Shown here in pieces: positions 5,681 through 48,363 of a stretch of DNA of 64,000 nt; within the stretch, counting starts at the first letter, position 1, and every line of letters begins with the position of its first letter. The notes beneath the pieces were generated by a model, which saw only the letters and a list, made by a program, of their open reading frames with translations, was not told where the DNA came from and ran no database searches. This DNA comes from Ariolimax columbianus (taxonomy: Eukaryota > Mollusca > Gastropoda > Stylommatophora > Arionidae). Where the stretch lies: contig JAVGWX010000018.1 of assembly GCA_036924085.1 (NCBI GenBank), forward strand, positions 24,625,848-24,689,847, read 5' to 3'. Both the position numbers and the translations under genes were made by a program.

Positions 5681-5991
5681 AATCATTTAATGATACTCAT
5701 TTTTAGTTTAAAGAATCCACTAAGGAGGTATGGCCATAGGGCCGACTGCTCCATCCTGTAATTAGTAGAAAAGCAATTAAATGTTCAATGGACTTACGCA
5801 ATATCCCAGTTAACCGATCAGTATGTAAACTAAACCGGATCGAATCTGAAACCACAGTGTAACGCAGGGAACATGTTATTTCAAAAAATACTGTCATAAA
5901 AAGGGTAATTATCTCATAAGACTGGTTTCATTAGGAGCGTTTGTTCTTGTATAACGTAAATAAAGAAAAGATGGGTATTCGGCTTGTTTCA
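5681..5991. other. Non-coding, nothing recognised
   Basis: Spacer between a LINE fragment and the 69-bp minisatellite. No domain or repeat recognised. Confidence 0.35.
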
Positions 5992-6750
5992 GGGAAGTAT
6001 TATGTGAAAGGATCACTCTCAACTGTGATTTTTTGTGTTTTGTACCTTCAGTTTGTTTCAGGGCAGTATTATGTGAAAGGATCACTATCAACTGGGATTT
6101 GTTGTGTTTTGTACCTTCAGTTTGTTTCAGGGCAGTATAATGTAAAAGGATCACTATCAACTGAGATGTGTTGTGTTTTGTACCTTCAGTTTGTTTCAGG
6201 GCAGTATTATGTGAAAGGATCACTATAAACTGTGATTTGTTGTGTTTTGTACCTTCAGTTTGTTTCAGGGCAGTATTATGTGAAAGGATCACTCTCAACT
6301 GTGATTTGTTGTGTTTTGTACCTTCAGTTTATTTCAGGGCAGTATTATGTGAAAGGATCACTATCAACTGTGATTTGTTGTGTTTTGTACCTTCAGTTTG
6401 TTTCAGGGCAGTATTATGTGAAAGGATCACTCTCAACTGTGATTTGTTGTGTTTTGTACCTTCAGTTTATTTCAGGGCAGTATTATGTGAAAGGATCACT
6501 ATCAACTGTGATTTGTTGTGTTTTGTACCTTCAGTTTGTTTCAGGGCAGTATTATGTGAAAGGATCACTTTCAACTGTGATTTGTTGTGTTTTGTACCTT
6601 CAGTTTGTTTCAGGGCAGTATTTTGTGAAAGGATCACTATCAACTGTGATTTGTTGTGTTTTGTACCTTCAGTTTGTTTCAGGGCAGTATTATGTAAGGA
6701 TCACTATCAACTGTGATTTGTTGTGTTTTGTACCTTCAGTTTGTTTTAAT
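5992..6750. repeat. 69-bp minisatellite, about 11 units
   Basis: Units start at 5992, 6061, 6130, 6199, 6268 and so on, exactly 69 bp apart. The final unit (6682) has lost 3 bp. Each unit starts GGGCAGTATTATGTGAAAGG and contains TTGTTGTGTTTTGTACC. Because 69 is a multiple of three and units lack stops in several frames, long open frames arise on both strands (for example 6168-6716 and 6232-6858 plus, 5909-6298 minus). They encode monotonous 23-residue repeats. I regard these as by-products of period length rather than genes. Confidence 0.92.
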
Positions 6751-6764
6751 TCTCTGTGTGGATG

Positions 6765-7010
6765 TCAGGTCAGGTCAGGTCAGGTCAGTAATCCTGTAAC
6801 CAGTGATACCCTTCTCTTACACCAGCCGCTGCTAGTGCCTCTTTTAGTAGGAAATTGATCCATTGTTTTATGTTGTCCTCCCACCTCCTTTTGGGACGGC
6901 CTTTTTATTTTCTGTCTTGCGCCTTTCCATGCAGGATTGTATTTGCAATACTATTTGAGGATGTATGGATGATGTATAGAGCAATTATAAACCTCGGCAC
7001 AATACAAGTG
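6765..7010 (-). mobile_element. RTE-like LINE 3' end with pentamer tail
   Basis: On the minus strand the sequence parallels the last 250 bp of the element at 8950-10320 (GCATGGAAAGGCGCAAGACAG region, then GGTGGGAGGACAACATAAA). It ends in a (TGACC)n tail, seen here as AGGTCAGGTCAGGTCAGG at 6767-6786. It is a 5'-truncated insertion landed at the end of the 69-bp minisatellite. Confidence 0.75.
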
Positions 7011-11227: not shown

Positions 11228-11236
11228 GATCCCGTC
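11228..11236. repeat. Left target-site duplication of the rRNA-LINE composite
   Basis: GATCCCGTC at 11228-11236 matches GATCCCATC at 16612-16620 in 8 of 9 bases. Both copies encode the 'DGI' codons of the split minus-strand RT, so the duplicated sequence belongs to the target element. Confidence 0.7.
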
Positions 11237-11237
11237 G

Positions 11238-11590
11238 TACCATCGACATTTGATAGGGCAGACATTTGAAAGATGCGTCGCTGGCACATAAGGCCATGCG
11301 ATCAGCACAAAGTTATCCAGAGTCACCAGTGGGGACGCCGCAAATCCGCGAGGGGAAACGACGATTGGTTTTGAACTAATAAAAGCGCTCTTTCCACGAG
11401 GGTCGGAGTTTGGTAAGCATGTTTTAGCTCTAGAATTGCCAGAGTTATACAAGTAGGATCGTGTCATCTAAGGAACTTCAACTGATTTAATGAGCCATTC
11501 GCGGTTTCACCGTGAGACAGTGTAAACTTAGACATGCATGGCTTAATCTTTGAGACAAGCATATGACTACTGACAGGATCAACCAGATAT
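11238..11590 (-). rRNA. 18S rRNA 5' segment (about nt 1-355), inverted
   Basis: On the minus strand it begins at 11590 with ATCTGGTTGATCCTGTCAG, the canonical 18S 5' end. It continues through AGTCATATGCTTGTCTC, ATTAAGCCATGCATGTC, GCGAATGGCTCATTAAATCA and TAGAGCTAAAACATGC, and stops at CGATGGTACG near 11238. The sequence is close to a functional animal 18S. It is inverted with respect to the next 18S block (11866-12740), which starts almost exactly where this one stops in rRNA coordinates. It is part of an inserted chimera, not a working rRNA gene. Confidence 0.93.
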
Positions 11591-11865
11591 CTGTCTGAGA
11601 CGTACGTACCGCACACACCGGTCGACGGAGGACGGGTGTGTAAAAAGCCTCACTGGGACGGCCACAGGGACCGACTGACGGACGGACGGACGGTTGTTCC
11701 CCCCATCCCTCACTCCGTCGACCTAGGACCGCCTGACAGGGGCCCGTACACACACCAGACGACCGACCGACCGACCGACCGGGCTCGCTCGGGGGAGGGA
11801 TGGCAGCACTCTGTGCAGAACGGATCCCAACGGCCCCGGCGATGAATTTCACTGGGACTGGAGAC
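11591..11865 (-). other. Probable 5' external transcribed spacer
   Basis: GC-rich sequence with GACG- and GACC-type short tandem repeats (11675-11690, 11759-11782). It lies directly upstream of the inverted 18S 5' end on the minus strand, which is where a 5' ETS would lie. Assignment rests on position and composition only. If right, the template was precursor rRNA or an rDNA transcript rather than mature 18S. Confidence 0.55.
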
Positions 11866-12682
11866 ATGTTCGTAACGGGTAACGGGGATTCAGGGTTCGA
11901 TTCCGGAGAGGGAGCATGAGAAACGGCTACCACATCCAAGGAAGGCAGCAGGCGCGCAACTTACCCACTCCCGGCACGGGGAGGTAGTGACGAAAAATAA
12001 CAATATGGCATCCTTTCGAGGCCCCGTAATTGGAATGAGTACACTTTAAACCCTTTAACGAGGATTTATTGGAGGGCAAGTCTGGTGCCAGCAGCCGCGG
12101 TAATTCCAGCTCCAATAGCGTATATTAAAGTTGTTGCAGTTAAAAAGCTCGTAGTTGGATCTCAGGCGCAGGCGGGCGGTCCGGCTCGCGCCGGTTCACT
12201 GCCCGTTGTCTCCTGCCCTACCGTCTACCGGCTCTCTCCCACGGGTGCTCTTCGCTGAGCGTCCTGGGTGGCCGGCGCGTTTACTTTGAAAAAATTAGAG
12301 TGTTCAAAGCAGGCCTCGGCTGCCTGCATAATGGTGCATGGAATAATGGAATAGGACCTTGGTTCTATTTTTGTTGGTTTTCGGAACTGGAGGTAATGAT
12401 TAACAGGGACAAACGGGAGCATTCGTATTGCGGCGTTAGAGGTGAAATTCTTGGATCGCCGCCAGACGAGCTACTGCGAAAGAATTTGTCAAGAATGTTT
12501 TCATTAATCAAGAACGAAAGTACAGAGGCGCGAAGACGATCAGATACCGTCGTAGTTCTGACCATAAACGATGCCGACCAGCGATCCGCAGGAGTTGCTT
12601 CGATGACTCTGCGGGCAGCTTCCGGGAAACCAAAGTGTTTGGGTTCCGGGGGAAGTATGGTTGTAAAGCTGAAACTTAAAGA

Positions 12683-12716
<34 letters not shown>

Positions 12717-12740
12717 GCGGCCTAATTTGACTTAACACGG
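11866..12740 (+). rRNA. 18S rRNA internal segment (about nt 356-1290)
   Basis: Plus-strand 18S. It contains AACGGGTAACGGGGATTCAG, GTGCCAGCAGCCGCGGTAAT (near 12087), AAGCTCGTAGTTGGATCTCA, a GC-rich variable V4 region, GAGGTGAAATTCTTGGATCG (about 12438), CATAAACGATGCCGACC and GAAATTGACGGAAGGGCACC (about 12681). The 3' third of 18S, ITS1, 5.8S and ITS2 are missing. The near-canonical sequence suggests a fairly recent origin from a functional rDNA unit. Confidence 0.93.
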
Positions 12741-13460
12741 CCAACACTGAAATGACTGACATGCCGAGACCACTTTCGTTGGGTCTAATATGGAACGGGT
12801 GTTGGATTTAGACCCTCGGAAAACTGGGGTAATGCTCTCTGTGGCTCGGTTGGTCTGCATTCAGTGTTTAACAAAGAAATTGACGGAAGGGCACTAATGA
12901 GATGAGCCTGCGGCTTAAATTGACTTAACACGCCAATACTGTAGAACGACTGTCAAATAGAGAGCACTTTCGTTGGGTCTAATAGTGAACATGTGCTGGT
13001 ATAGGACCCACGGAAGACAGGTCAGTTTCTTAACCTCACAAGGAAAGAACGTCTGCTATGGTAATCTGGTCTTAACCCTGCGGAAATCGCAGGTTTCAGA
13101 AACTTGGCCATTGACAAACAAAAAGCCCTCTATTGATACGTCTGGTCAAATAGTGAACGGGTGCTGGAAAAAGACCCTCGGAAGACAGGCCAGTTTTACC
13201 CTACTAATGACAGGGCGTTGCTACGGTAATCCTGCTCAACTCGAGAGGAGCCGCAGACATCTGGTTCACGTACTAGGCTGATAAGCCAACGGCGCGAGGC
13301 TACCATGTGAGGGATTACGGCTGAACGCCTCTAAGCCAGAATCTCGCCCAAAATCACAGCACGATTGCAATGGGAGGCTTCGACAGGGTGGGGATCTGGG
13401 GCTCACGCTTCAGCCCCGCCCGGTCGAGCCGCAGAAAGAGGTCTCTGCCGCCCACCGATC
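12741..13460 (+). rRNA. Scrambled 28S rRNA 3' segments
   Basis: Three degenerate versions of the 28S region 'TTGGGTCTAATAGTGAAC...GTGCTGG...AGACCCTCGGAAGACAGG' start near 12776, 12969 and 13146. The second is preceded by a second copy of the 18S GAAATTGACGGAAGGGCAC block (about 12874), so an 18S-28S fusion of about 194 bp is tandemly duplicated. The third version continues to the 28S 3' region: CAGTTTTACCCTACTAATGA, GGTAATCCTGCTCAACTCGA, GGTTCACGTACTAGGCTGA and GGCTGAACGCCTCTAAGCCA (about 13319). Beyond about 13350 the match fades. It is non-functional. Confidence 0.82.
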
Positions 13461-13750
13461 AAAGCGGGCGGGAAGCTGCTCCATATTCACCCCATGCGGC
13501 GATGAGGTGCGAAACAAAAAACAAAAGACTTAGTTCTGGGTCGGGGTGTCGTAAACAGTAGAGCAGCCACCTCACTGTGAACTGTCGAGACTCAGCCGCT
13601 GACCATGAGATATGCCCACACACCAGCGAACAACATCTCCGTGACATTACCAGGCTTGTCCCCTGGTTAAATGCACTGCTGCTTCTATCTCCTCCTCTAT
13701 CTGCTATCAGCCATACCAATGGACGCAGAAGAGATGCAGGCTAGCGGACA

Positions 13751-14506
13751 TTGCACATCTGCCCTACTGTGTCAACCTCCCAGGTGGCGGGGAATGCTAA
13801 GCTTTCCCTAACACATCACTTGCATGAAGGTAAGATTGACGTGGCATGTATCCAAGAAACGCACCTCAACAGCAACCATACATTCTCAATCAGAGGATAC
13901 CAGGCCTTCCGCCTGGATAGAGAGGGTCACAAAGGAGGGGTTATGATACTGACCCGAAACTGCATACCGAGTAGCGCGGTATTTGTCAATCACACCGGAC
14001 AAGCAGAAATTGTAGGAGTAGACATAATGGCTCAAGAGACGAAGATCCGCATCTTCAACCTGTACGGACCACCAAATAAAGACCTATCGCTCTCGAGTAT
14101 GGAAGTCAAGGACTCCAACTGCATAGTAGTTGGAGACTTCAACAGCCACTCGGAGCGATGGGGATACTCGGACACAGACAGCAGAGGTGACGAAGTGGAA
14201 GATTGGGAGATAGACACGAATCTCCATCTAATCAATAGGCCGGAGGATAGCCCTAGCTTCTATTCTAGAACATGGCATACCACCTCGACTCCAGATTTGG
14301 CCTTCTCCACAATGGAAATTCACCATAAAATAGACTGCCAGGTGCTAAACCAATTGGAAGGTAGCGACCACAGGCCAATTTGGCTAGAAATTGATATGGA
14401 AGTAGGCCCACAGGAAACAAAACTGCCCCCACGTTGGAATTACAAACGAGCTGACTGGGACAGATTTGCAAGCCTGACAGATACACGAATACAGAATACA
14501 CGCTAA
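13751..14506 (+). pseudogene. APE-type endonuclease domain of I-like LINE
   Basis: An open frame of 251 residues with the apurinic-type endonuclease motifs. IDVACIQETHL (residues 29-39) has the catalytic Glu. YGPPN is near 105-109. VVGDFNSHSERWGY (126-139) has the Asp/Asn pair, TWHTTSTPDLAF is at 174-185 and EGSDHRPIW at 203-211 has the terminal Asp-His. The fold would nick target DNA to prime reverse transcription. The first ATG gives an incomplete first strand: homologues normally have an 'LQWN' motif just upstream, here degraded to SQVAG. A stop at 14504 separates it from the RT with which it would be one ORF2 protein. Confidence 0.85.
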
Positions 14507-14596
14507 ACCAAACAGCAAGAAAAAGCTGGAAAAACAAAAACGGAAATCCTCAACCTAGACAAAGAAGGGAACAAACTATGGAAGTTAGTCAGATCC

Positions 14597-15220
14597 ATGA
14601 ATGACGAAACCTCGTCAAACAAACAAATTACCAACAAGCAGGGCGAAAACTTGCTCACTGGAAAAAAAGCCGCAAACGCCTTTGTTGAAAACTATGCCAA
14701 AGCGAACCACATAGATGTCCCTGCAGATAGGCATACGGACATTAACGAAGAGCAAAAGGGGCACGACAACATCAATATGGCACCAGAAGAGCATATGATG
14801 GCAAAACTAACAATGAACGAAATGGAAGAGGCCATGAGAACATTAAAGAAAAGGAAATCTCCCGGAAAAGACGGGATAACAAACGAAATGCTGATGGGGC
14901 TGGGCCAAACAGCAAAAAGAAAACTGCTATCAGTCCTGAACCAAAGCTGGAAAAGGGGTATTGTACCCCAGGTATGGAAAGACGCAGTACTTGTACCAGT
15001 ACCAAAGAAAGGAAAAGACAAAACAGATCCAAATGGATACATGCCGATCAGCCTACTGAGCTGTGTCGGCAAACTGATGGAACGTATGATAAACACCAGA
15101 CTGATGTGGCATCTGGAAGAAAAACGGATACTAATTCCACAGCAAGCATGCTTTAGACAGCACAGATCCACTGAGGATCATGTCATCCTCATAGCCCAGG
15201 AAATAGAAGATGCCTACTAG
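14597..15220 (+). pseudogene. RT N-terminal half of I-like LINE
   Basis: The linker is followed by MNEMEEAMRTLKKRKSPGKD (about residues 74-93) with the GKDGI motif 0. Next come VPQVWKDAVLVPVPKKGK, YMPISLLSCVGKLMERMI (motif 1, Arg normally in 'YRPISL' changed to Met) and IPQQACFRQHRSTEDH. It ends at a TAG near 15218. The next segment, with motif A 'LEKAFDKV' near 15256, is in another frame and contains stops. Confidence 0.83.
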
Positions 15221-15982
15221 TAACAGAAACACACAGTAGCGGTTTGGGTGAACCTGGAAAAGGCATTTGACAAAGTCTGAAAAGATGGACTTAGAGTCCA
15301 GCTAAGAAGAAGTGATGTTTGTGGGAAATTGTACAAGTAGATCAACCACTACCTCAAAAACAGAACGGCCAGAGTCCAAGTACAAGGACAGATGAGCAAA
15401 AAGGTTACACTCGAGCAGGGAGTACCGCAAGGCGGAGTACTGTCACCCACACTCTTCCTGGTGTATATAAATGACATTATAGAGAATATACCAAGAAGGG
15501 TTCATAGCTCAATGTTTGCAGACGATCTGGCTATGTGGACCTCTGAAAAGAATCTCACCGTAGCAAGAAATCGGATGCAGCAGGCCCTAACATCGCTGGA
15601 AGAGTGGGCGAACTCATGGCTGGTCAAAATAAACGAGAAAAAAACCACATGCACAATATTCTCGCTATCAATCAAACCCCAAAACACCAAATTAAGTCTA
15701 AACGGAAAATACCTTCAGCCAAATGACAACCCAAACTATCTGGGAGTCACATTTGATCGGCGCATGACATGGAAAAGTCAGATCGAGAGAAACCGAATGA
15801 GAGCCAGAGAAAGAATGGCAATCATGAGGAAACGTGCTGGCACAAGCTGGGGAGCAGACAAAAGCATACTAAAGAAACTGTACACTGGAAGAGTGAGACC
15901 AGTTCTCGAGTATGGCATTGCGGCATGGACAACAGCAGCAAAGGCGAAATGGGTACAGGTAAGAGTAATGAAAGCCACATAG
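15221..15982 (+). pseudogene. RT C-terminal half of I-like LINE
   Basis: After a disrupted stretch, the frame from 15392 shows LEQGVPQGGVLSPTLFLVYI, the catalytic box SMFADDLAMW (about 15512) and NPNYLGVTFDRRMTWKSQIE. WGADKSILKKLYTGRVRPVL and YGIAAWTTAAKAKW follow. The catalytic DD is intact. Immediately after AKAKW, at about 15955, the sequence jumps to the second half of RNase H. A segment that should hold the post-RT region and the first RNase H acidic motif is missing. Confidence 0.83.
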
Positions 15983-16560
15983 TCCTGCTTACAGACGCTC
16001 TGGCCGTAGTCACAGCACTTAAAAGCCAGAAAAATACTGAACTTAATGATTTAAGAGCAGTACTCTGTCAACTATGCCAGCAGGCCGCACCAAAAAGGGT
16101 AGTGGTGCAGTGGGTTCCATCTCACTGCTACATCCAAGGCAACGAGGAGGCAGACAGACTGGCAAAAGAAGGTGCAAAACTACCCCAACCAGATACTAAC
16201 ATGACATACGAAGAGTCAAAACGGCTTATTAGAGCTAGATACATGACCAAATGGGAAACCGAACATACTGGCTACACCAAAAACGATGCCTATTACTAGT
16301 TGAACAGAAGAGAGCAGGTCGTGGTTTTTAGACTTCGCACTGGCCACATCAGACTGAGGTACCACCTATTCAACAAATTGAAGATAGGTGGCACCGACGA
16401 ATGCTCGTGTGGTACCGGGAAAATGACCGCTGAGCATTTGCTGCAAAACTGCCCGACATACGAGGATCAGAGAGAGCAGATGTGGCCATCACCAGTGGCA
16501 ACACTAGACAAGCTATATTTCAGTGTCGACAGCCTCAGGATGACGGCTGCTTTTTTCTAA
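15983..16560 (+). pseudogene. RNase H remnant and C-terminal Cys/His segment of I-like LINE
   Basis: VLLTDALAVVTAL (about 15987) carries the third acidic residue of RNase H. VQWVPSHC and GNEEADRLAKEGA (about 16108-16173) carry the His and last Asp. After a TAG at 16297 comes LNRREQVVVFRLRTGH, RYHLFNKLKIGG, then CSCGTGKMTAEHLLQNC, a C-x-C...H...C arrangement typical of the tail of this LINE group. The N-terminal RNase H motif is lost through the deletion near 15955. Confidence 0.83.
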
Positions 16561-16590
16561 AAAATAATGGTTACTGTCTGACTGCGTACG

Positions 16591-16620
16591 AAGAAGAAGA
16601 AGAAGAAGAAGGATCCCATC
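16591..16620 (+). repeat. GAA tail and right target-site duplication
   Basis: GAAGAAGAAGAAGAAGAAG (16591-16609), the 3' tail of the LINE, is followed within a base or two by GATCCCATC (16612-16620), the partner of 11228-11236. The other truncated copies of this LINE end in the same triplet tail. Confidence 0.75.
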
Positions 16621-28154: not shown

Positions 28155-28725
28155 TTGGATATCTTCTTCTTCTTCTTCGTACGCAGTCAGACAGTAACCA
28201 TTATTTTTTCGAAAAAAGCGGCGGTCATCCTGAGGCTGTCGCCACTGCCATAGAGCTTGTCTTGCAGTTCCACTGGTAATGGCCACATCTGCTCTCTCTG
28301 ATCCTCGTATGTCGGGCAGTTCTGCAGCAGATGTTCAGCGGTCATTTTACCAGTACCGCACGGGCATTCGTCGGTACACCCTATCTTCAATTTGTTGAAT
28401 AGGTGGTACCTCAGTCTGTTGTGGCCAGTGCGAAGTCTGAAGACAACGACCTGCTCTCTTCGGTTCAACTGGTAATAGGCATCATTTTTGGTGTAACCAG
28501 TATGTTCGGTTTCCCATTTGGTCATGTATCTGGCTTTGATAAGCCGTTTTGATTCTTCGTACGTCATACTGGTATCTGTTTGTGGTAGTCTTGCACCTTC
28601 TTTTGCCAGTCTGTCTGCCTCCTCGTTGCCTTGGATGTTGCAGTGAGATGGGACCCACTGTACCACTACCCTTTTTGGTGCGGACTGCTGGCACAGTTTG
28701 CTCTTAAGTCATTAAGCTCAGTACT
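28155..28725 (-). mobile_element. I-like LINE 3' fragment (RNase H end)
   Basis: Minus strand: VQWVPSHCNIQGNEEADRLA (RNase H His and Asp), ARYMTKWETEHTGYTKNDAY, LNRREQVVVFRLRTGHNRLR and CPCGTGKMTAEHLLQNC. The TTCTTCTTCTTCTTCG near 28164-28179 is the GAA-type tail. This copy is open over about 160 codons and preserves the residues that have decayed in 15983-16560. Confidence 0.85.
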
Positions 28726-28939
28726 ATTCATATAGCCGATGTCCACTTCCAGGAAGAAAATACAAAGCGATCAAACTAACCAGTCCAAATTGAAAACAAC
28801 AACACATTTCCTAGAACACAAGCCTAAGTCGTCAACCAGTGTGAATTCCTGACAAATCCATGGTCTGGCGGCATCTACAATGAACTAAAACAGAAGAGCA
28901 ATGTAGAACCGTAGCCAATTATAGTGCCATCTTTGCTGC

Positions 28940-30120: not shown

Positions 30121-30361
30121 ACCATGTATTAAGGTCAAAGGGACTTGCAGATACTATACTACAGGGCACAGTTTAGAGCAAGCGAAAACGAGAATGTCCG
30201 AGAAAATTATTGGAAGATAACATCTATGAATAGACTAGCCTATGACTGAGGGAGGCAAAAAAAGCAGCCACAGACAGAGAGGGATGGCGCAGGATTGTGG
30301 AGGTGTCAGCAGGAGTGCCCCAACAATCTCAAGAGATCACAGGATGAACTGAACTGAACGA
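30121..30361 (+). mobile_element. LINE 3' end with (TGAAC)n tail
   Basis: The plus strand reads LLEDNIYEW, LREAKKAATDREGWRRIV and VPQQSQEI, the familiar C-terminus of RTE-like ORF2 proteins (DNI.EWT...EA...A.DRE.WRR.V...VPQ). It ends in GAACTGAACTGAACG. The mirrored copy begins at 63880 and runs off the right window edge. Confidence 0.65.
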
Positions 30362-30481
30362 AGACACTATGTAGGACAGTAAAGATCGATGTTGATCTGT
30401 TAAAATATAAATCGAAAGATTGAAAATGTTGAACAATATTTCTCATGGTAGGTCTACTAACATGTGAATAATAAAGTACTA

Positions 30482-30780
30482 TTAGGTCAGGTCATACTAT
30501 AAATGGTGAGGTCGATGGGGCACACATGAAGACTTCCTTGCAACCTTACGCCACACTTCATTGTCAGCGGCTGCTACCTGTGCCTCTTCTGGTCGGAGAT
30601 TGGTCCATTCTTTTATATTGTCCTTCCACCTCTTTTTGGGACGACTTCTTCGTCGTCTACCTTGCACCTTTCCGTGCAGCATTGTATTTGCAAGACCATT
30701 TGATCTCGATATGTGACCGTGCCCAAACGAGTTTTCTTCTTTTGACAGTTGCCAAGAGCTCTTCAAAAAGCCATACACAG
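30482..30780 (-). mobile_element. RTE-like LINE 3' end, (TGACC)n tail
   Basis: Minus strand: HISRSNGLANTMLHGKVQGR, then SRPKKRWKDNIKEWTNLRPE and SSCVPHRPHHL. It belongs to the family of 8950-10320. Tail AGGTCAGGTCAT at 30485-30496. Mirrored at 63465-63757. Confidence 0.82.
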
Positions 30781-30865
30781 AATTTTAATGCTCAGGTCTC
30801 GTCTGTTAACATGTTGATAATAAGATAATAGGTAGGAAAGTAAAGTTCAGTTTTGGTCTACATCT

Positions 30866-31966
30866 TAGGACATGTAGATAGCGAAATACTATCTAGGTCA
30901 TGTGGAGAGTGAAATACTATATAGGTCATGTCGATAGTGAAATGCTATCTAGGTCATGTGGATAGTGAAATACTATCTAGGTCATGTGGATAGTGAAATA
31001 CAATATAGGTCATGTGGATGGTGAAATACTATCTAGGTCATGTGGATAGTGAAATACTATCTAGGTAATGTGGATAGTGAAATACTATATAGGTCATGTG
31101 GATAGTGAAATACTATCTAGGTCATGTTGATAGTGAACTACTATCTAGGCCATGTGGATAGTGAAATACTATCTAGGTCATGTGGATAGTGAAATGCTAT
31201 CTAGGTCATGTGGATAGTGAAATACTATCTAGGTCATGTGGATATTGAAATACTATCTAGGACATGTGGAGAGTGAAATACTATCTAGGACATGTGGATA
31301 TTAAGATAATAGGTAGGAAAGTACAGTTCAGTTTTGGTCTACATCTTAGGACATGTAGATAGCGAAATACTGTCTAGGTCATGTGGAGAGTGAAATACTA
31401 TCTAGGACATTTAGATAGCGAAATACTATCTAGGACATGTTGATAGTGAAATACTATCTAGGACATGTGGATAGTGAAATAGTATCTAGGGCATGTGGAT
31501 AGTGAAATGCTATCTAGGTCATGTGGATAGTGAAATACTATCTAGGTCATGTCGCTAGTGAAATGCTATCTAGGTCATGGGGATAGTGAAATCTATCTAG
31601 GTCATGTGGATAGTGAAATACAATATAGGTCATGTGGATGGTGAAATACTATCTAGGTCATGTGGATAGTGAAATACTATCTAGGTCATGTGGATAGTGA
31701 AATACTATATAGGTCATGTGGATAGTGAAATACTATATAGGTCATGTGGGTAGTGAAATACTATATAGGTCATGTGGGTAGTGAAATACTATCTAGGTAA
31801 TGTGGATAGTGAAATACTATATAGCTCATGTGGGTAGTGAAATACTATCTAGGTAATGTGGATAGTGAAATACTATCTAGGTAATGTGGATAGTGAAATA
31901 CTAAATAGGTCATTTGGATAGTGAAATACTTTTTAGGTAATGTGGATAGTGAAATACTATCTAAAC
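30866..31966. repeat. 28-bp minisatellite, left arm (about 39 units)
   Basis: The unit is GGTCATGTGGATAGTGAAAT plus ACTATCTA, 28 bp. The flank with GGTAGGAAAGT (30831) reappears inside the array at 31312, 481 bp on, so part of the array was copied as a block together with its flank. The mirrored array at 62608-63375 is about 330 bp shorter. Confidence 0.93.
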
Positions 31967-32354
31967 CTACTAAAGCCATCGATATATGGTAGTTCAGTGC
32001 TAAAACTACCAAGCATGTTTAGGACACGAACGCCATGCCTCTAATAGCAATACATTTTTTCTTATTAAGAAAAAGGTTAATACTGTTTAAGTAATACAAT
32101 ATATTTTGGTTTGGTACGCATTGTTGTGTAGAAATAGCGGTGAATTAGTGCGTTGTTAAAAAATCGTTAACCTAAATTGCAGGACTGGTGAGCCACTCTA
32201 AAAGAGTTACAGCCATGTTCATGGCCCATAGCAAGGATGAACTATTTTTTTACCAAAATTCAAAGCTGTTCTGTGGATTTTGCTTATTTAGGCTTAATAA
32301 AAAATCAGTGATGCTACAAGGATAGACATTTAGAAGTTATCCTGCCAAACGGGG
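31967..32354. other. AT-rich unique block of the arm
   Basis: No gene recognised. It matches 62171-62600 in reverse with few differences. Confidence 0.5.
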
Positions 32355-32615
32355 AACTTGGCTTGGCTTGGCTTCGTTCGTTCGTTGCACCTTTCAGTCC
32401 AACACATCCGCCTTAAGCAACCATTTTTTGAGTACCGGGTTAGCATTCCCTCTTCCATCCCTTCTCCTTAGCCAGTCTGCTCTGTTCCAGCCTGTTATCC
32501 AGGATCATCGCGTGGAGGTGTTGACGGGTCTTGACAGCTCTGGTTCACTGGCCCTGGCGCTAGCAGTCAGCTATGGGTCGCTGACCGCTGCAGCTCATGT
32601 GCTGCATACGGGGAA
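32355..32615 (+). repeat. Dispersed repeat family B, deleted copy
   Basis: Starts with TTGGCTTCGTTCGTTCGTT and jumps directly to TTGCACCTTTCAGTCCAAC. The mirrored copy at 61805-62170 keeps the roughly 115 bp between these two parts, so the left arm has lost them. It contains a single unit (CTAGCAGTCAGCTATGGGTC) of the sequence that is a 33-bp array in 39115-39400. Confidence 0.78.
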
Positions 32616-32639
32616 CTGAGACGCTAGTCTAGCCAGGCA

Positions 32640-32935
32640 CAACATACTGACCAGGACGTCGTGTCAGGGTCAGGCACAATACACTGACCAAGACCACAGT
32701 CTCTCTTCCATGTAGCGTTTTCTGGAAACAGGCCGTTTTCAGGCAGTCTGGCTGACGAGGTGTGATCTCCGTAATAGTGAGCGCAACGCAGATGAAAAAC
32801 CGCCAGGAAGGCCACCTTCAACGGCATGACAGGGATGGGATGAAAGCTACCACAACCTGCCACTTAACACTCTTTTCAGGGCGCACAAAAGAGTAAACTT
32901 ACTCACTGTGGGCATTGAACAACAACATCCTCCTT
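32640..32935 (+). repeat. Dispersed repeat family A
   Basis: Co-linear with 1100-1435: TACTGACCA and GTCAGGGTCAGGC at the head, AGTCTGGCTGACGAGGTG in the middle, GGGCGCACAAAAGAGTAAAC near the end and AACAACAACA as tail. An open frame on the reverse strand (32624-32863) has no known domain. Confidence 0.75.
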
Positions 32936-33445
32936 CTTCTTCATCGTACGCTGTCAGACGTCAACTTGAATTTGTTCTAAGAAAGTAGCGGCCATCCTTC
33001 CTGAGGCTGTCGACACTGCCATAGAGCTTGTCTAGTGTTGGCACTGGTGATAGGCACATGTGCTTTCTCTGGTCCTCGTATGTCGGGCGATTTTGCAGCA
33101 AATGTTCAGGAGTCATTTTCCCTGTACCACAAGTGCATTCATCAGTAGCACCTATCTTCAGTTTATTGAATAGATGGTACCTTAGTCTGTTGTGACCTGT
33201 GCGGAGTCTAGCGACCACTACCTGCTCTCTTCTGTTCAATTGGTAGTAGGCATCATTTTTTGTGTAGCCAGCATGCTCTGTTTCCCACGTGTCCATGTAT
33301 CTGGCCCTAATAAGCCTTTGGACTCTTCGTAAGTCACACTAGAATCTGGTTGTGGTAGTCTTGCACCTTCTTTTACCAGTCTGTCTGCCTCCTCGTTGCT
33401 GTGGATGTTACAGTGGGATGGAACCCACTGTACCACTATTTTTGT
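32936..33445 (-). mobile_element. I-like LINE 3' fragment
   Basis: Minus strand: VQWVPSHCNIHSNEEADRLV, then KNDAYYQLNRREQVVVARLR, CTCGTGKMTPEHLLQNR. It ends near a CTTCTTCTTCATCG tail at 32933-32946. A frameshift near 33310 splits the frame in this arm, whereas the mirrored copy 60985-61490 is open throughout. The extra or missing base therefore arose after the duplication. Confidence 0.83.
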
Positions 33446-33454
33446 TTTGGGGCT

Positions 33455-33468
33455 GGGGGGGGGGGGGG
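33455..33468. repeat. 14-G homopolymer
   Basis: Fourteen consecutive G; the mirrored run is C at 60960-60972 (13). It marks the 5' truncation side of the LINE fragment. Confidence 0.85.
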
Positions 33469-33499
33469 AGGGAGAGGTCCTTCGTCAGTGTGTTTACCT

Positions 33500-33695
33500 G
33501 ACCCTAATTAACATTGTCTGATCAGTATGATTTACCTGACCCCGGCTAACATTGTCTGATGGGTATGTTTTACCTGACCTTAACTAACATTGTATGATGG
33601 GTATGTTTTACCTGACCTTAACTAACATTGTCTGATGGGTATGTTTTACCTGACCTTAACTAACATTGTCTGATTGGTATGTTTTACCTGACCGG
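33500..33695. repeat. 38-bp minisatellite, about 5 units
   Basis: Units of TGTCTGATGGGTATGTTTTA plus CCTGACCTTAACTAACAT, 38 bp. The unit is the reverse of the head of family A (ACTGATCAGACAATGTTAG with GTCAGGTAAAA). It appears to have been amplified from a family A fragment. Mirrored at 60735-60930. Confidence 0.85.
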
Positions 33696-33748
33696 GCGAG
33701 AGTCTCAGATCCCCATGTGCAATGTGTATTCGATGTTGTCATATTTCA

Positions 33749-33968
33749 GTGGCGATTCAATAAATATTTCGTCTTCCTGTCAAACAAATGGAAAGAATCT
33801 ACTTCATTATTAAATGATGAGTTTGAAGAGCACATTCATGTCTTTGGAGGATATGACAGTATTATTATATATCTACTTCTGCAGGAAGCTAATATGGCTC
33901 GTTTGCATGATGACATCCAAGAACCTAAAAAGATAAATCCACTTTCACACAAAACTAATTTACTATAA
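33749..33968 (+). CDS. Candidate 3'-terminal exon, unknown protein
   Basis: An acceptor-like GTTGTCATATTTCAG ends at 33748. The following frame reads WRFNKYFVFLSNKWKESTSL, then NDEFEEHIHVFGGYDSIIIY, LLLQEANMARLHDDIQEPKK and a stop at 33966, about 72 codons. Composition looks protein-like (charged, few low-complexity runs). The mirrored copy is identical in protein. I do not recognise the family and see no upstream exon. Confidence 0.3.
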
Positions 33969-34310
33969 ATATATCAAAATTCGCGTTAACAAATTCACTT
34001 TTACAGAAAACAGGTCTTTTATAACAGTGTAGTAACAGTAGGTCGAGAGATGATTATTTTGAGAGACAGCTATGTGTGTAGCAACGGTAAGGCCGAAACT
34101 TGATGTATTGACAGATCTCAGTGTAATAACTGTGTGGCCCAGACTTGATTGCTTTGGCAGAGATATGTGTGTGGTAGATTAATTATATGATTTAATTTGT
34201 TTATTGCTGTTTGTGTTGGCAGAATTATAACTTTTAGAACACAAGTGAGACAAATTGTCGTATATTTTATCTTATTAGTACTACTGATCTACTAAAACAG
34301 CAATAGCACG
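33969..34310. other. Unique block of the arm
   Basis: No gene or repeat recognised. Mirrored at about 60116-60460. Confidence 0.4.
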
Positions 34311-34755
34311 CAAACAAATTAAGCTAGAACCTTTAAACTTTCACAGTAATCCACAGAAGTTAAATTGGAACATTCAAACTCTCACAGTTGCACACAGTAA
34401 TAAAGCTAGAACCTCAAAATTCTCACTGGTGTACACATAAACCAAGCTAGAACATTCAAACCTTCGCCGCAGTTCATAGAAATCAAGCTATATAGGACAT
34501 TCAAACTTTCACAGTAGTCCACAGAAATCAAGTTAGAACCTTCAAACGTTCATAGTAGTCCACATAAATCAAGTTAGAACCTTCAAACGTTCACAGTAGT
34601 CCATATAAATCAAGTTAGAACCTTCAAACGTTCACAGTAGTCCACATAAATCAAGTTAGAACCTTCAAACTTTCACAGTAAGCCACAGAAATCAAGCTAG
34701 AGCCTTCAAACTTTCACAATAGTCCACATAAATCAAGCTAGAACATTCAAACTCA
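34311..34755. repeat. 41-bp minisatellite, about 11 units
   Basis: Units contain AAGTTAGAACCTTCAAACG and TTCACAGTAGTCCACATAAA; measured period is 41 bp (for example 34571 to 34612). The left end is diverged and the central units are nearly identical. Mirrored at 59670-60110. Confidence 0.88.
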
Positions 34756-34760
34756 CAATA

Positions 34761-34955
34761 GTGCCCATAAACAAAGAAACTTACTTGAGATACCAACAAT
34801 TGCGACCACTCCCAGTATATGGCCTGGTTAAGAATGACTGTACAGATGTAGCTGATTCGAGCATCTATTACAAACGAAAATCTGTAGCAATGAAAAATGT
34901 GACGGCGAGTTCTGACCGACTAATGACCCCGAGCCACGGTCTAGCTACTCAAAAA
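34761..34955 (+). CDS. Candidate internal or first exon, unknown protein
   Basis: The frame from ATG at 34761 reads MPINKETYLRYQQLRPLPVY, GLVKNDCTDVADSSIYYKRK, SVAMKNVTASSDRLMTPSHG and LATQK. A donor-like AAAAA|GTAAGAAA starts at 34956. The peptide looks coding-like (basic, hydroxyl-rich) and is identical in the mirrored copy 59461-59667. No known domain, and nothing proves it is spliced. Confidence 0.28.
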
Positions 34956-35074
34956 GTAAGAAAATAGACTTAACGTATCAGTGAGCGGGTGTGTTAAGTT
35001 AGCTAGCTTTAACTGCATCCAGTTTACCCGCATTTGACGGCTTTTCTTTGGTGGTCACAAAGCCATTTTATATC

Positions 35075-35360
35075 TTATCCAAGTATCTCTAGTTGTTAAC
35101 CTAATCTTATCCAAGTATCTGTAGACGTAGATCTAATCCTATCCAAGTATCTCTAGACGTAGACCTGCTCTTTTCCAAGTATCTCTAGACGTAGACCTAA
35201 TCTTATCCAAGTATCTGTAGATGTTGACCTAATCTTATCCAAGTATCTCAACACGTAGACCTAAACTTATCCAAGTATTTCTAGACGTAGACCTAATCTT
35301 ATCCAAGTATCTCTAGACGTAGACCTAATCTTATCCAAGTATCTCTAAACGCAGACCACA
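35075..35360. repeat. 32-bp minisatellite, about 9 units
   Basis: Units of TCTCTAGACGTAGACCTAAT plus CTTATCCAAGTA, 32 bp. Mirrored at 59070-59360 with the same number of units. Open sequence on either side is unrelated. Confidence 0.9.
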
Positions 35361-35364
35361 TTTT

Positions 35365-35915
35365 CATTTATCATACAGTGGATCTATGAACACTACCACA
35401 CATGACAACGACAAGGTGGACAGACTAGCAAAGAATGGATAAAGACAAGAATTGCCACATGCTGCGACAGCCATAAAACAGCCAAGCAGCTCATACCAGC
35501 AATCACAGAGACTTGTCTGAACAGATAGACCATGGGAAACACGGGAATGGAGATCACAAACGGGAAGCCTCAATCTAAATTACAGCAACAATCAACTCAC
35601 ATAGACAGAATCATTGTACCATTTTCTGGCTGAGAACCGAACACATTCCACGTTACAAGCACCTGAACATAATCCAACCACAACACACACCACAGTGCCA
35701 GCTGTGTACACACCCATATGCCACAGTTGGTCATTATCTCTTTGAGTGATCGGCGCTCAACGATGCTAGGAGAATGCTTCTTCCTATGAGGCCAGATAAA
35801 TGGATCACTATGTATGGCACTAGACAACAACTAACACGCCCAGACACCAGTATATGGCATTGGGCAAAAGGGAATGAGCATCGATGCTTCTGGAACCGTA
35901 ACAAAGTCTGGTCAG
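35365..35915 (+). pseudogene. LINE RNase H and C-terminal Cys/His fragment
   Basis: The plus strand reads THDNDKVDRLAKNG (RNase H C-terminal Asp region), QELPHAATAIKQPSSSYQQS, then in a shifted frame PQCQLCTHPYATVGHYLFE, which has a C-x2-C...H...H pattern. RRMLLPMRPDKWITMYGT follows near 35770. This is the end of an RNase H-bearing LINE of a different family from 28155 and 32936. Stops and frameshifts are present. Mirrored at 58515-59062. Confidence 0.68.
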
Positions 35916-35985
35916 GCAAAACATACTGATCGGACATGTTAGTCAGGGTCGGGTAAAATAAAAAGTAAAACAACAACACATTGTA
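35916..35985 (+). repeat. Family A short fragment
   Basis: GGTCAGGCAAAACATACTGA, AGTCAGGGTCGGGTAAAA and an ACAACAACACA tail: head and tail of family A without the middle. Mirrored at 58440-58515. Confidence 0.6.
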
Positions 35986-36179
35986 AGAAACAGGCCTACT
36001 TCCAAATGAGCCAGACGACAGTTCATATCGGATCCACAACTAGGGGATTGCATGTTAAGTTTTGATTCGCATTATTATTTTATAAGTCTAGTGATATTGC
36101 GAGCTTAATATCTAAGTAGCAACATGTCACTGTGTCGGCTTGTGCATTCAAAAGTAAAAACAACTATGATTCTCTGTAT

Positions 36180-36364
36180 AAGTGAAATCTTACCTCTAAA
36201 TCAACCATATAATCGGTGTACTACAGTAAACACAAAATCTTAATTCTATGTCATCATATCATCGGTGTACAACAGTAAATATAAAATCGTTCCTCTATCC
36301 CCATTTGATCGATATTCTACAGTAAACACAAAATCTTACCTTTTTGTCATCATTTAATCGATAG
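36180..36364. repeat. 49-bp family, diverged units
   Basis: About four units with TCGGTGTACTACAGTAAACA and AAAATCTTACCTCTA, an older version of the array at 36660-37420, from which it is separated by a LINE fragment. Mirrored at 58080-58250. Confidence 0.75.
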
Positions 36365-36590
36365 GAAAGAATCGCCACCAATCACACAGACTGGCGCAGC
36401 ACTATTGCTGAGGGTGTTGAGACAAGAGTCATCAAGAATAGATGAGGCCATCCAGAGACGCTCGCTCTGCAAGTCAACTCACACCAACCCTTCTTCAACC
36501 CCGGTGGAAGGAGGTGTCTTATTTCCCTGTATAAAGTGCAACAGACAATTCAATGCTCAGATTGGCTTATTTAGCCATGTTTGACCTCAT
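36365..36590 (+). pseudogene. Zinc-finger C-terminus of LINE ORF2
   Basis: The plus strand reads LLRVLRQESSRIDEAIQRRS, STPVEGGVLFPCIKCNRQ and FNAQIGLFSHV then a stop. FPCIKCNRQFNAQIGLFSH is the F-x-C-x2-C...GL.SH zinc finger that closes ORF2 in this LINE group. The final Cys is lost behind the stop. It is inserted in the 49-bp array. Mirrored at 57844-58075. Confidence 0.75.
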
Positions 36591-36659
36591 GTGAACAGTT
36601 TACAGTGAATGCTGACAAAGTGGTCCTCATCGATTACGATGGACTAACAACATACGGTG

Positions 36660-37420
36660 TACTACAGTAAAAACTCAATCTTACTTCTAACCCACTGTAT
36701 GGTCGGTTTACTACAGTAAACACTAAATCTTACTTCTAATCCACTGTATGGTCGGTTTACTACAGTAAACATAAAATCTTACTCCTAACCCACTGTATGG
36801 TCGGTGTACTACAATAAACACTAAATCTTACTTCTAACCCACTGTATGGTCAGTTTACTACAGTAAACACTAAATCTTATTTCTAACCCCCTGTATGGTC
36901 GGTTTACTACAGTAAACACTAAATCTTACTTCTAACCCACTGTATGGTCGGTTTACTACAGTAAACACTAAATCTTACCTCTAACCCACTGTATGGTCGG
37001 TGTACCACAATAAACACTAAATCTTACTTCTAACCTACTGTATGGTCGATGTACTACAGTAAACACTAAATCTTACTTCTAGCCCACTGTATGGTCGGTG
37101 TACTACAGTAAACACTAAATCTTACTTCTAACCCACTGTATGGTCGGTTTACTACAGTAAACACTAAATCTTACCTCTAACCCACTGTATGGTCGGTTTA
37201 CTACAGTAAACACTAAATCTTACTTCTAACCCACTGTATGGTCGGTTTACTACAGTAAACACTAAATCTTACTTCTAACCCACTGTATGGTCGGTTTACT
37301 ACAGTAAACACTAAATCTTACCTCTAACCCACTGTATGGTCGGTGCACTACAGAAAACACCAAATCTTACCTGCAACCCACCATATGGTCGGTGCACTAC
37401 AGTAAACACAAAATCTTATA
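36660..37420. repeat. 49-bp minisatellite, left arm (about 15 units)
   Basis: GGTCGG starts at 36701, 36750, 36799, 36848 and so on, 49 bp apart. Each unit holds GTTTACTACAGTAAAC (GTTTACT and AGTAAAC are perfect reverse complements around AC) or a one-base variant, followed by ACTAAATCTTACTTCTAACC. The mirrored array, 57110-57775, has one or two fewer units. Confidence 0.93.
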
Positions 37421-37442
37421 AAAAATATTTTCTTTGTTGCAG

Positions 37443-37641
37443 GTTGTGCAGTGTTTACACCATACGAAAAACAGGACCACTAATTGTGTCGTCACCGGAT
37501 TCTCCCGCGCAACACTTTGTTGAGACATTTCGCATCTACTACCACTTATCCTACACGATGCCCAGGGCTCATCACCCGTTGTCGTGGACGATCAATGCGA
37601 AAGGCACTGGTTGGATATACAGATTGCATGGCTTGACTTGA
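37443..37641 (+). CDS. Candidate exon after a strong acceptor, unknown protein
   Basis: TATTTTCTTTGTTGCAG ends at 37441, a good acceptor with an uninterrupted pyrimidine tract. In one frame the sequence then reads LCSVYTIRKTGPLIVSSPDS, PAQHFVETFRIYYHLSYTMP, RAHHPLSWTINAKGTGWIYR and a stop near 37640. Another frame stays open from about 37584 to 37772 (ERHWLDIQIAWLDLKQEALT). Neither is recognised. Mirrored identically at 56885-57085. Confidence 0.28.
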
Positions 37642-37772
37642 AGCAGGAGGCACTAACTATAGCTAGTCCTCTTTCTTGTCTTTTATCACGCCAGCCGAAG
37701 CACAGTGGTACCAGCACAGTCGACTTCGATCAAGAAACCTGCGACAAAGAACGTTGCATGCTCTTGCAGTAG

Positions 37773-38155
37773 TCGATTCTGTAACTATTGTCTAGCATGA
37801 TGAAGCTGCTAATATGATGCACAACTCACTTTAGTCGTCCCTTTTAAGGCATGCATGGAGTTCATGGAATCAAATCAAAATCACGTCCCGTCATTTCTTG
37901 AATCACATGTTCAGCCTTGTATTTTACTTAACATAACGAGCTTTTAGAAAACATGATTCTTTTCATTTGCAGTACGGTGGAAATAATTTTTATATAGTTA
38001 TTTTGCCACATCCATGCACAGCCTTTTGTCGCATCTTACAATATACAAGGCATTAAATAATTTATCCTAATTTCTTCACCAATCAGGAGAAATAAATACA
38101 TCGCCCACCTTTACATATTTTGTCCTGGACTTACAGTGGCAATTTTTGGCAGCGG
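37773..38155. other. Unique block of the arm
   Basis: No gene recognised. Mirrored at 56373-56750 with a few base changes. Confidence 0.4.
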
Positions 38156-38765
38156 TTATATCCTTTCAGTTGCCAAGAGGTCTTCAAAAGGCCATATTGC
38201 TGTTGTAATTCTATCTCGTATTTCCTCATTTGTAACTCGATCTTTGTACGTGACGTTTAAAAGTCTTCGGAAACATCTCATCTCCAAGGCCTGTATCCTT
38301 CGCTGAAGGTCAGCTGTAACTGTCCATGTCTCATTAGCATAGAGGAATATTGACAGGACCAGTGTACGTATTAATCTGATTTTCGTGCATAGTGCTAACC
38401 GTTTATCTTGCCAGATTGTGTTAAGCCGTGCAAGCGCCGCTATTGGCTGTGCTATTCTGGCCAACACCTCACATTTTGATCCTTCATCACTGACAATCGA
38501 ACCCAGATATTTAAAACGGAAACTCGCTTGGTACGGTTACATATCGAAATCAAATGGTCTTGCAAATACGATCGTCCACGGAAAGGTGCAAGGCAAACGA
38601 CGAAGAGGTCGGCCCAAAATCAGGTGGGAGGACAACATAAAAGATTGGACCAGAACAGGTACAGGCAGCATCCGCCGACAGAGAAGGGTGGCGTGGAGTT
38701 GTGAGGTTGTCTTCATGTGTACCCCAACAGCCTCACGGGTTACGGGATGACCTAACCTGACCTGA
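38156..38765 (+). mobile_element. RTE-like LINE with 5' inversion (twin-primed)
   Basis: Two parts of one element in opposite orientation. Bases 38520 down to 38156 (minus) encode VLARIAQPIAALARLNTIWQ, LSIFLYANETWTVTADLQRR and FRRLLNVTYKDRVTNEEIRD, matching 9697-10047 of the copy at 8950. Bases 38514-38765 (plus) encode RKLAWYGYISKSNGLANTIV and RRRGRPKIRWEDNIKDW and end in CCTAACCTGACCTGA, matching 10058-10320. The break joins the 5'-most base of the inverted part to the next forward base, exactly the structure made by twin priming. Mirrored at 55760-56372. Confidence 0.85.
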
Positions 38766-39114
38766 TATCCTGTCATTTCCAGTAAGGGGCCCCGGGATTC
38801 ACTGGTGGAGGTAATCTTATTGGTAGGTGTGAAACGTGTAGCGACAAAGATAGAAAAGATATGAATTTGAAGTGCATGTATGTAGCTTTCTCAAAGTGCT
38901 CAAAATCGCGATGTGACTGCACTGGCTCACAAGCAGAGACCATGTATGTGTTCAGATTCCTGAACCTGCAGTGAAGGAAACCTATGGGATGTGAGTCCAT
39001 TTAAAGTTCGTACTGAATGTGGATTCACCAGAATGTAAGGTGCAAAACACCTAGTACTTCGTCTTAGGAAACACAGTGAACCATGTAAACAAAATGTGGG
39101 ACCTTGCACTGTAC
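38766..39114. other. Unique block of the arm
   Basis: No gene recognised. Mirrored at 55565-55760. Confidence 0.35.
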
Positions 39115-39690
39115 TTGTAATATTTGTCAGTGACTCGTAGCTGACTGCTAGCGTCAGGGTCAGTGAATCGTAGCTGACTGCTAGCGTCAGGGTCAGTGAC
39201 TCGTAGCTGACTGCTAGCGTCAGGGTCAGTGACTCGTAGCTGACTACTAGTGTCAGGGTCAGTGATTCGTAGCTGACTACTAGTGTCAGGGTCAGTGACT
39301 CGTAGCTGACTACTAGTGTCAGGGTCAGTGACTCGTAGCTGACTACTTGTGTCAGGGTCAGTGACTCGTAGGTGACTACTAATGTCAGGGCCAGAAAACC
39401 AGAGCTGCCTAGACTCTTCTTCACCTCCACGCGGTGATCCTGGATAACAGGCCGCAGCAGGGCAGTATGGCTAAAGAGAAGGGATCAAAGAGGGAATGCT
39501 AACCCGTTACTCAAAAAATGATTGCTGAAATCGGATGTGTTGCACCGAAAGGTGCATATATCGCAGCCAAGCTGTAAACTACGACACAGCGCATTCTGTT
39601 CTTTGGACTTCATTCTGCTACTTAGGCCCGTGTCAGGGTTTGGTAGCGGGAGATTAAGAACGAACGAACGAAGCCAAGCCGAACATGCAT
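39115..39690 (-). repeat. Family B copy with internal 33-bp minisatellite
   Basis: Bases 39128-39390 are about eight 33-bp units (GTGACTCGTAGCTGACTGCT plus AGCGTCAGGGTCA). The family B body follows at 39391-39690. Because 33 is a multiple of three, an open frame (38927-39430 minus) with 11-residue repeats VVSYESLTLTL results. In the shorter family B copy at 32355-32615 the unit is present once, so the array grew from a single internal copy. Mirrored at 54969-55560. Confidence 0.88.
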
Positions 39691-40449
39691 TAGTGTTGCT
39701 AGGTAACCGAAGGCTTGGGCTGTGTAGTAGGTTTTTTATAACTTTCTGCTGCTTACTGTATAATACAATGTAAATCTTATATTGTTTTCTCTAGTTTTTG
39801 ATTCTATGTTTTTGATTATACGATATATACGAAGTAATTCGGTAAATAAGATCACACATCGATATGGAATAGCTGAAAGACGTAGCTGATAGTTTCTAAA
39901 GGTAGCAGCAACATCTAGCTTTGTGATTACTGTAAGTAGCAGACGCTATGTGGCAGCAACATCCGGCTTTGTGATTACTTATTTAGCAGACGCTAGGTGT
40001 CGCATGCACGTGCGTAGCCGAGATTACATATGGCGTTCTTACTCACAGAGAGTACATAAAAAACAGCTGTTGGGTGGTGGGGTTTATTTAAGCGGGTGTG
40101 AAAGGCGAGGGAAAATGCACTTCAAATGATATTCATAAGGAAATGCTTCTGCTACGGTGAGAAGTGTGTGTCAGGTAAAGCGGTGCCATAATTATCGGTA
40201 AGTTTTCTGAAGGACGCTTTAAAAATGCCGATTGAAGCCCTACCTGTGCATCCTGTTAAGATTACAACAGAAGCATTTGTGGGTAGGGGAGATAATTCGA
40301 GGGGAAAGAATAGTAACGATAGACAGTGCGGTAACAGAAATACTGTGTTCGCGTGGTTTAGTCTACAGCATAATGCATGATCGATTGAATTTCTGGAAAG
40401 TGAGCTCATCATGGGTATCCAGACTATGGCCGTTTGCGCCTTGACAAAC
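39691..40449. other. Arm block with a 50-bp duplication
   Basis: At 39901-40000 a segment of about 50 bp occurs twice (GCAGCAACATCTAGCTTTGT and GCAGCAACATCCGGCTTTGT). Otherwise no gene is recognised. Mirrored at 54260-54970. Confidence 0.5.
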
Positions 40450-41069: not shown

Positions 41070-41270
41070 ATGAGACATTTTTTTCTTGCACTGATTAAGC
41101 ACTGGAATAAATGCATTAATATTGGTGGGAATTATGTTAAGATGTATGGGACAATGTTAGTGCACAATAAATGTTTTTCAAATTCGTATCTAATTTATAT
41201 TCTTTTAATTGCCAATTGTGACCAATTTACTGACTTGTATGATGATGGTATGACGGAGAACATGTTCTGA
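41070..41270 (+). pseudogene. Possible mariner-like transposase C-terminal remnant
   Basis: The frame MRHFFLALIKHWNKCINIGG then NYVKMYG resembles the 'RW.KC....G.YVEK' end of Tc1/mariner-type transposases. The rest of the frame (to GMTENMF) is not recognised. No catalytic DDE/D region is visible and no terminal inverted repeats were found, so the call is tentative. The mirrored copy 53424-53624 differs by one residue. Confidence 0.35.
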
Positions 41271-44205: not shown

Positions 44206-44329
44206 ATACCTATAAACTTTCTTTGCACATATTCATAGACTGACACCAATCTTTGTTCTGCGGTTTATTTGTATCCACATTTCAACAGATATAGACTGAT
44301 GAAGAATTTTACTGTCCTAAGTGATTATG

Positions 44330-45115: not shown

Positions 45116-45129
45116 AATCATGAACATTA

Positions 45130-48290: not shown

Positions 48291-48363
48291 CCAGGAACTG
48301 TGGTGTTTGTGTGGATGTGTGTGTGTGTGTGGGTGTATGTCTGTGTGTATATTTTTGTAAATA

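Follow-up and report, generated by a model that had tools for sequence, protein, structure and literature searches.

A dispersed LINE family with a pre-rRNA-like front end in the genome of Ariolimax columbianus

Every copy of a long interspersed nuclear element (LINE) must obtain a promoter somehow, and R2 does so by staying in the ribosomal DNA (rDNA). R2 has no promoter of its own and is made as part of the precursor ribosomal RNA (pre-rRNA), its 5′ end being released by a ribozyme (PMC8789037). Chimeras of LINE-1 with 28S, 5S, U6 and other RNAs arise occasionally, with template switching or RNA ligation proposed as the route, and short interspersed nuclear elements (SINEs) derived from 5S or 28S rRNA bring rRNA sequence into LINE-mobilised elements (PMC13174262). 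BLAG elements of the German cockroach are proposed to be promoterless and to borrow host promoters, their subfamilies carrying different upstream sequence (PMC7650587), and the non-autonomous derivatives of R2 and R1 (SIDEs) are internally deleted and have ends in common with the autonomous LINE (PMC3414825). Here, we describe a LINE family of the gastropod Ariolimax columbianus in which 5′ external transcribed spacer (ETS), 18S and 28S sequence precede the LINE body. One copy occupies 11237-16611 of a 64,000-nt stretch of contig JAVGWX010000018.1 (the window). The literature searched, mostly titles and the starts of abstracts, describes no dispersed LINE family with an ETS-18S-28S front end, which does not exclude that one exists.

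The copies share a common start beside the rDNA core promoter, are dispersed with target-site duplications and GAA tails, and carry an ETS+18S module that extends across subfamilies. We consider it probable that the front end derives from pre-rRNA, that the element RNA is made by polymerase I from rDNA-linked sources, and that the ETS+18S part has been exchanged or renewed.

The host genome searched comprises 2.29 Gb (its contigs are labelled C and the loci L). Window positions 11590-11870 have 3,470 candidate places in it, and all 40 that were scored matched. Thirteen of these (the window and 12 others) match at 97-100% and recur every 180-200 kb on C18, C48 and C65; these resemble copies of a single large duplicated unit, as if a large tandem segment had been amplified. 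Another place on C18 (94%, L030) is a rearranged copy of the window insertion, and the remaining 26 match at 92-95% on 15 different large contigs. Twenty loci, picked by their ETS match, were fetched for reading. Whole copies have a non-inverted order: ETS, 18S nt 1-1240, three degenerate 28S pieces (A, B and C), the 28S 3′ end, a leader, and then either the LINE or a body lacking endonuclease (EN) and reverse transcriptase (RT). The LINE lies downstream of the front end in nine loci (L022, L026, L027, L028, L032, L034, L037, L039 and L040), several with deletions or rearrangements of their own, and eight carry the front end on the EN/RT-less body (L021, L023, L024, L025, L031, L033, L035 and L038). 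Seven of these eight reach the GAA tail (L035 breaks off), and L031 also holds a LINE fragment; L029, L030 and L036 are rearranged loci. The lengths measured are 6,992 and 6,962 bp for two autonomous copies and 3,549 and 3,558 bp for two that are non-autonomous. L023, L025 and L038 are elements of about 3.55 kb that lack EN and RT, consist largely of pre-rRNA sequence, and have a GAA tail and direct repeats.

An APE endonuclease, an RT and an RNase H domain are all present, as in an EN-RT-RNase H LINE, which may be I-group-like. The three domains are well kept in L034/L043, with at least one frame break, and no ORF1-like frame was recognised between the 28S end and EN in L034, the one copy looked at. 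Exact flanking repeats of at least 11 bp were found in six of 13 copies (L021, L023, L025, L031, L034, and L022, where they are a simple repeat). An exact functional-type 28S motif at C19:4167122 stands 1,176 bp before a LINE endonuclease match at C19:4168335; in some LINE copies, to judge from this case, the 28S may be far less degenerate. Viral contigs yielded no relatives of an 18S stretch or of the LINE endonuclease.

The sequence-only reading had taken the window insertion for a target-primed copy of a chimeric rRNA-LINE RNA and had proposed, as a check, a search for other LINE copies preceded by 28S or 18S sequence. The first is supported, and the same ETS-18S-28S-LINE order is seen in dispersed copies, as in the nine loci above. 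It had also placed the making of the chimera in the window's own event, which is not supported: the fusion is the ordinary structure of dispersed copies, and the scrambled 28S repeats were inherited. A one-off LINE/rRNA chimera is ruled out by the same observation. Read-through or template jumping is instead a matter of how the family arose and is maintained, and the window copy added only a 5′ inversion and further deletions.

The common 5′ end, (A)TCTGGGGTAGTTGTCTCG, is found in 18 of the 19 loci compared (the fetched loci with L030 left out), 376-378 nt upstream of the point at which the window copy ends; in L027 it is followed by a deletion, and L021 is without it. Host rDNA was located by a motif at the 18S 3′ end, and a piece of one unit was read as L048. 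In this unit, the element start sequence follows GGAATGTATATT(A) about 635 nt before 18S nt 1; the start falls right behind TATATT(A), and the 5′ ends of the copies lie no more than a base or two from TATATTA. Polymerase I promoters commonly have a TATA-like box immediately upstream of the start, and the position next to TATATTA is likely the polymerase I start of the host rRNA. The 18S 3′ motif itself has 43 sites in the genome, 16 on small contigs; the other 27 are on large contigs outside the small rDNA contigs, and this part of 18S is absent from the elements read.

Promoter and start together occur at 124 sites. All of the 100 listed are exact. Small contigs hold 98 of them, with a spacing of about 12.3 kb in many cases, and the remaining two are on the large contigs C10 and C12. 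The element-type start alone has 4,563 sites (2,281 + 2,282) at no more than three mismatches, rDNA units included, and none in a reversed control; the host-type start differs from the element-type pattern by three mismatches, and the 124 promoter sites may be counted among the 4,563. About 4,400 start sites remain beyond them, which implies that most copies begin at the start and without the promoter. A 28S motif has 58 sites in the genome, none of them on the array contigs listed for the promoter-and-start pattern. These counts also bear on the idea of an assembly artefact of rDNA or repeats. Ribosomal RNA sequence is prone to misassembly and the window holds a giant inverted repeat, yet the same start recurs at thousands of places, the sampled copies have different flanks, and six of those tested have the long exact direct repeats given above; we judge an artefact very improbable.

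The promoter followed by element-type ETS was found at 12 sites (at most two mismatches). Six belong to rDNA units whose ETS is intermediate (five on C86, one on C236), and the others are on C20 (probably without the promoter) and at C12:62836869, C277:50806, C4:108055692, C13:56502289 and C10:58993502. Both loci read, C277 and C12, continue upstream into rDNA promoter or spacer: in C277, the 169 bases preceding the start agree with the host unit apart from two differences (by eye), and C12 has more differences and 19 gapped bases. Within C277, a probe 3.6-3.8 kb downstream of the start matches the element's A module in the same orientation. The proposal of the sequence-only reading that polymerase I read-through could lend the element a promoter is supported in so far as the common start and the promoter-bearing loci suggest it.

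A second line of evidence comes from the subfamilies, for which five autonomous and four non-autonomous copies were aligned, together with the window. Fixed differences between the two groups number 0 of 264 sites in the ETS, 0 of 1,157 in 18S, 4 of 559 in A-C and 16 of 257 in the 28S end. Mean between-group distances are 0.042 for the ETS, 0.039 and 0.043 for the two 18S halves, 0.136 for A+B, 0.094 for C, 0.199 for the 28S end and 0.133 for the leader (five against three copies). The subfamilies differ by 13-20% in the 28S end and leader and have ETS+18S in common. Fisher's p in the analysis of front-end exchange was 1.5e-9, which ignores shared ancestry and is a guide only. In the ETS+18S tree, the inner branches are near zero and the groups are mixed (near-star); the trees of the 28S part and of the leader set three subfamilies apart with long-branch support of 0.94-1.00, placing the window with L022. 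Types of the distal 365 nt of the ETS cross subfamily lines, as in L022, which goes with L039 and L033. One further locus comparison left out L024, L036 and L040 besides L030. The sharing of ETS+18S across otherwise distinct subfamilies speaks for exchange, and we infer that the front end has been exchanged or renewed.

Compared with the host unit, the majority base of 16 copies (L031, L032 and L035 being broken inside 18S) differs at 0 of 1,240 sites in 18S, 8 of 270 in the proximal ETS and 44 of 365 in the distal ETS, where sites 504-516 coincide with an indel, so that their alignment may be wrong. The idea that all rRNA parts are equally old is rejected on the contrast of 18S with the degenerate 28S and on the unequal distances. 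In the window alone, this contrast is weak, with few conserved columns and some mismatches that may be true host differences. That repeat A was already degenerate when it was copied was considered and rejected: A and B of the window share two changes that are absent in the majority of the nine copies.

A different history would start from a single capture of pre-rRNA in an ancestor, passed on vertically thereafter, with ETS+18S serving as the element's own internal promoter or leader under selection and being swapped once or twice by recombination. It would account for thousands of dispersed copies with the same start, and for element-type ETS bases that are fixed (15 of 15 copies, or 16 of 16) but differ from the host unit read. 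It fits poorly with a near-star ETS+18S tree that mixes three subfamilies kept apart on long branches by 28S and leader, and with distal ETS types that cross subfamily lines; we regard it as unlikely, although less so than an artefact.

Exchange or renewal of a polymerase I-transcribed front end could proceed as follows. For an element behind an rDNA promoter, polymerase I would begin transcription at the rRNA start and continue through ETS, 18S, 28S remnants and LINE. The RT would copy this read-through RNA into new sites, leaving the promoter behind, and the dispersed copies would mostly not be transcribed again from the rRNA start. Renewal of ETS+18S would most likely come about when the template switches to pre-rRNA within the 18S that both share, or else through conversion between source copies linked to rDNA. 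The window copy would be one such insertion, whose front was flipped by a second priming at 18S nt 354. In its most specific form, which we put forward tentatively and as rather less likely than not to hold in full, the lineage would be a polymerase I parasite with sources behind rDNA promoters, its RT repeatedly switching onto fresh pre-rRNA within 18S, so that the front is renewed while the body diverges.

Several points weigh against this account. Polymerase I transcription of the element is suggested, at the level of DNA sequence, by the start site and the promoter-bearing loci. In C277, the distance from the start to the A module is 3.6-3.8 kb instead of the 1.9-2.0 kb expected from L038, and a LINE at this locus would be putative. 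Flanking repeats reach only 6 bp in three of the 13 copies and are lacking in four, among which L024 and L038 have repeats, judged by eye, that contain one mismatch. The copies were chosen by ETS match and give no measure of the share of LINE copies with the front end, and the samples are small (nine copies in the subfamily test, 16 in the host test). The host ETS evolves too, so the contrast between 18S and ETS is by itself no proof of renewal.

The window insertion (Table 1) runs from inverted ETS/18S through forward 18S and 28S pieces to the LINE and its GAA tail. Its duplicated target measures 9 bp, and at least eight of nine matches at two fixed places would arise by chance with a probability of about 1e-4 (uniform bases). 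Translated on the minus strand, the flanks are two halves of one RT, ...NLALGRRIHSDGI on the right and PDLIKACNDTLLKPLHVLL on the left. The block is a single insertion, as the sequence-only reading had it, because there is one duplication pair and the flanks, independently of it, rejoin as one RT. Separate, sequential insertions of rRNA block and LINE might be imagined, since the block holds both and the window has other LINE fragments; against the single duplication pair and the same contiguous order in copies with a full front end and LINE, this is the least credible of the explanations weighed.

Table 1. Parts of the insertion and its target-site duplications (positions in the window)
Feature	Position	Strand	Basis
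Left target-site duplication GATCCCGTC	11228-11236	none	read in sequence; pairs with 16612-16620
Inverted 18S, nt 354 to 1	11237-11589	-	alignment to host rDNA L048; Rfam
Inverted 5′ ETS, -1 to about -269	11590-11866	-	alignment to host rDNA; same sequence dispersed in genome
Forward 18S, nt 367-1240	11865-12740	+	97.7% to host rDNA
Repeat A: end of 18S piece joined to degenerate 28S piece	12678-12827	+	self-comparison; human 28S as ruler
Repeat B: second, more diverged 18S::28S piece	12873-13066	+	self-comparison; human 28S as ruler
Repeat C and remainder of degenerate 28S to 3′ end	13144-13613	+	Rfam RF02543; human 28S as ruler
Leader between 28S 3′ end and LINE, shortened by deletion at 13799-13802	13614-13802	+	comparison with full-length copies
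LINE endonuclease (APE type), 5′ end absent	13799-14482	+	Pfam PF14529, PF03372; intact N-terminal part in L034
LINE reverse transcriptase, with stops	14488-15948	+	Pfam PF00078
RNase H part and LINE 3′ end	15967-16589	+	Pfam PF00075
(GAA)n tail	16590-16611	+	read in sequence; GAA tails end other copies too
Right target-site duplication GATCCCATC	16612-16620	none	read in sequence

Twin priming in LINE retrotransposition inverts a 5′ segment at nearly adjacent template positions. Aligned to the host unit, the inverted piece (11236-11866) runs from 18S nt 354 back to ETS -269; 12 template nt are absent at the break, and the inverted and forward pieces overlap by 2 nt. The sequence-only reading had recognised a break at adjacent template positions and proposed twin priming, placing the break at nt 355/356; the measured 354/367 corrects these positions, and the break at nearly adjacent template positions, in an inverted 5′ part between target-site duplications, fits the mechanism. 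It had likewise seen 28S up to its 3′ region ahead of the LINE, with the junction at 13350-13500, but 28S extends to about 13613, Rfam model position 3399 of 3401. The domains and tail that it named are confirmed by Pfam and by the (GAA)n run, although one of the two RT pieces scores under Pfam's cut-off. A, B and C are arranged in tandem, with pairwise identities of 78-79% in self-comparison, and, measured against full-length copies, the body of the LINE is missing stretches at 13799/13802, 14482/14488 and about 15948/15967. Most likely, the window block is a copy that was inserted with twin priming, has internal deletions and belongs to a high-copy EN-RT-RNase H LINE with a pre-rRNA-derived front end. 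An intact rDNA unit in the window is rejected, as Rfam finds only partial 18S on both strands and partial 28S, all within 11258-13613.

Elsewhere in the window, other 3′ ends of the same LINE (83-90% identical, without 5′ parts) lie at 28162-28729, 32930-33444, 48022-48294 and 60983-61498. The giant inverted repeat pairs 30241-47307 with 48827-64000 around a spacer of about 1.5 kb, its nine longest blocks being 93-99% complementary, and is either a real palindrome or an assembly artefact. Satellite arrays are found at 5840-6829, 30721-31920, 41765-44145, 36557-37542 and 62495-63494, with periods of 69, 28, 42, 49 and 28 bp, respectively.

The family offers a natural record of how a mobile element uses the polymerase I start site and of how LINE RNA and rRNA recombine. 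Estimates of rDNA copy number and surveys based on 18S could, moreover, be misled by its numerous near-perfect partial 18S copies outside rDNA.

Among the known systems, R2 is similar in that element RNA is made from the rDNA promoter, which for the family described here is suggested by DNA sequence. R2 occupies one 28S site and its 5′ end is freed by a ribozyme, whereas the insertions here are dispersed with different flanks and keep ETS, 18S and 28S at the 5′ end; R2 also has a restriction-like endonuclease after the RT, in contrast to the APE-type endonuclease before it. LINE-1 chimeras likewise have sense 28S pieces fused to the 5′ side of the LINE, but those reported are single insertions (18 with 28S) with short pieces of 50-482 nt (median 269), and here the fusion belongs to the heritable structure of a family (PMC13174262). 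For BLAG, the part of the source available names random host genes, not the rDNA promoter (PMC7650587). The 3.55-kb EN/RT-less elements may be compared with rRNA-derived SINEs, although the front end here also has ETS and 18S and sits on an autonomous LINE as well. SIDEs, as outlined in their source, are rDNA-resident, unlike the dispersed elements here. Set beside these systems, the family looks like another way for a LINE to obtain a promoter: it carries the 5′ part of the rRNA transcript in thousands of copies, a part that its subfamilies have in common.

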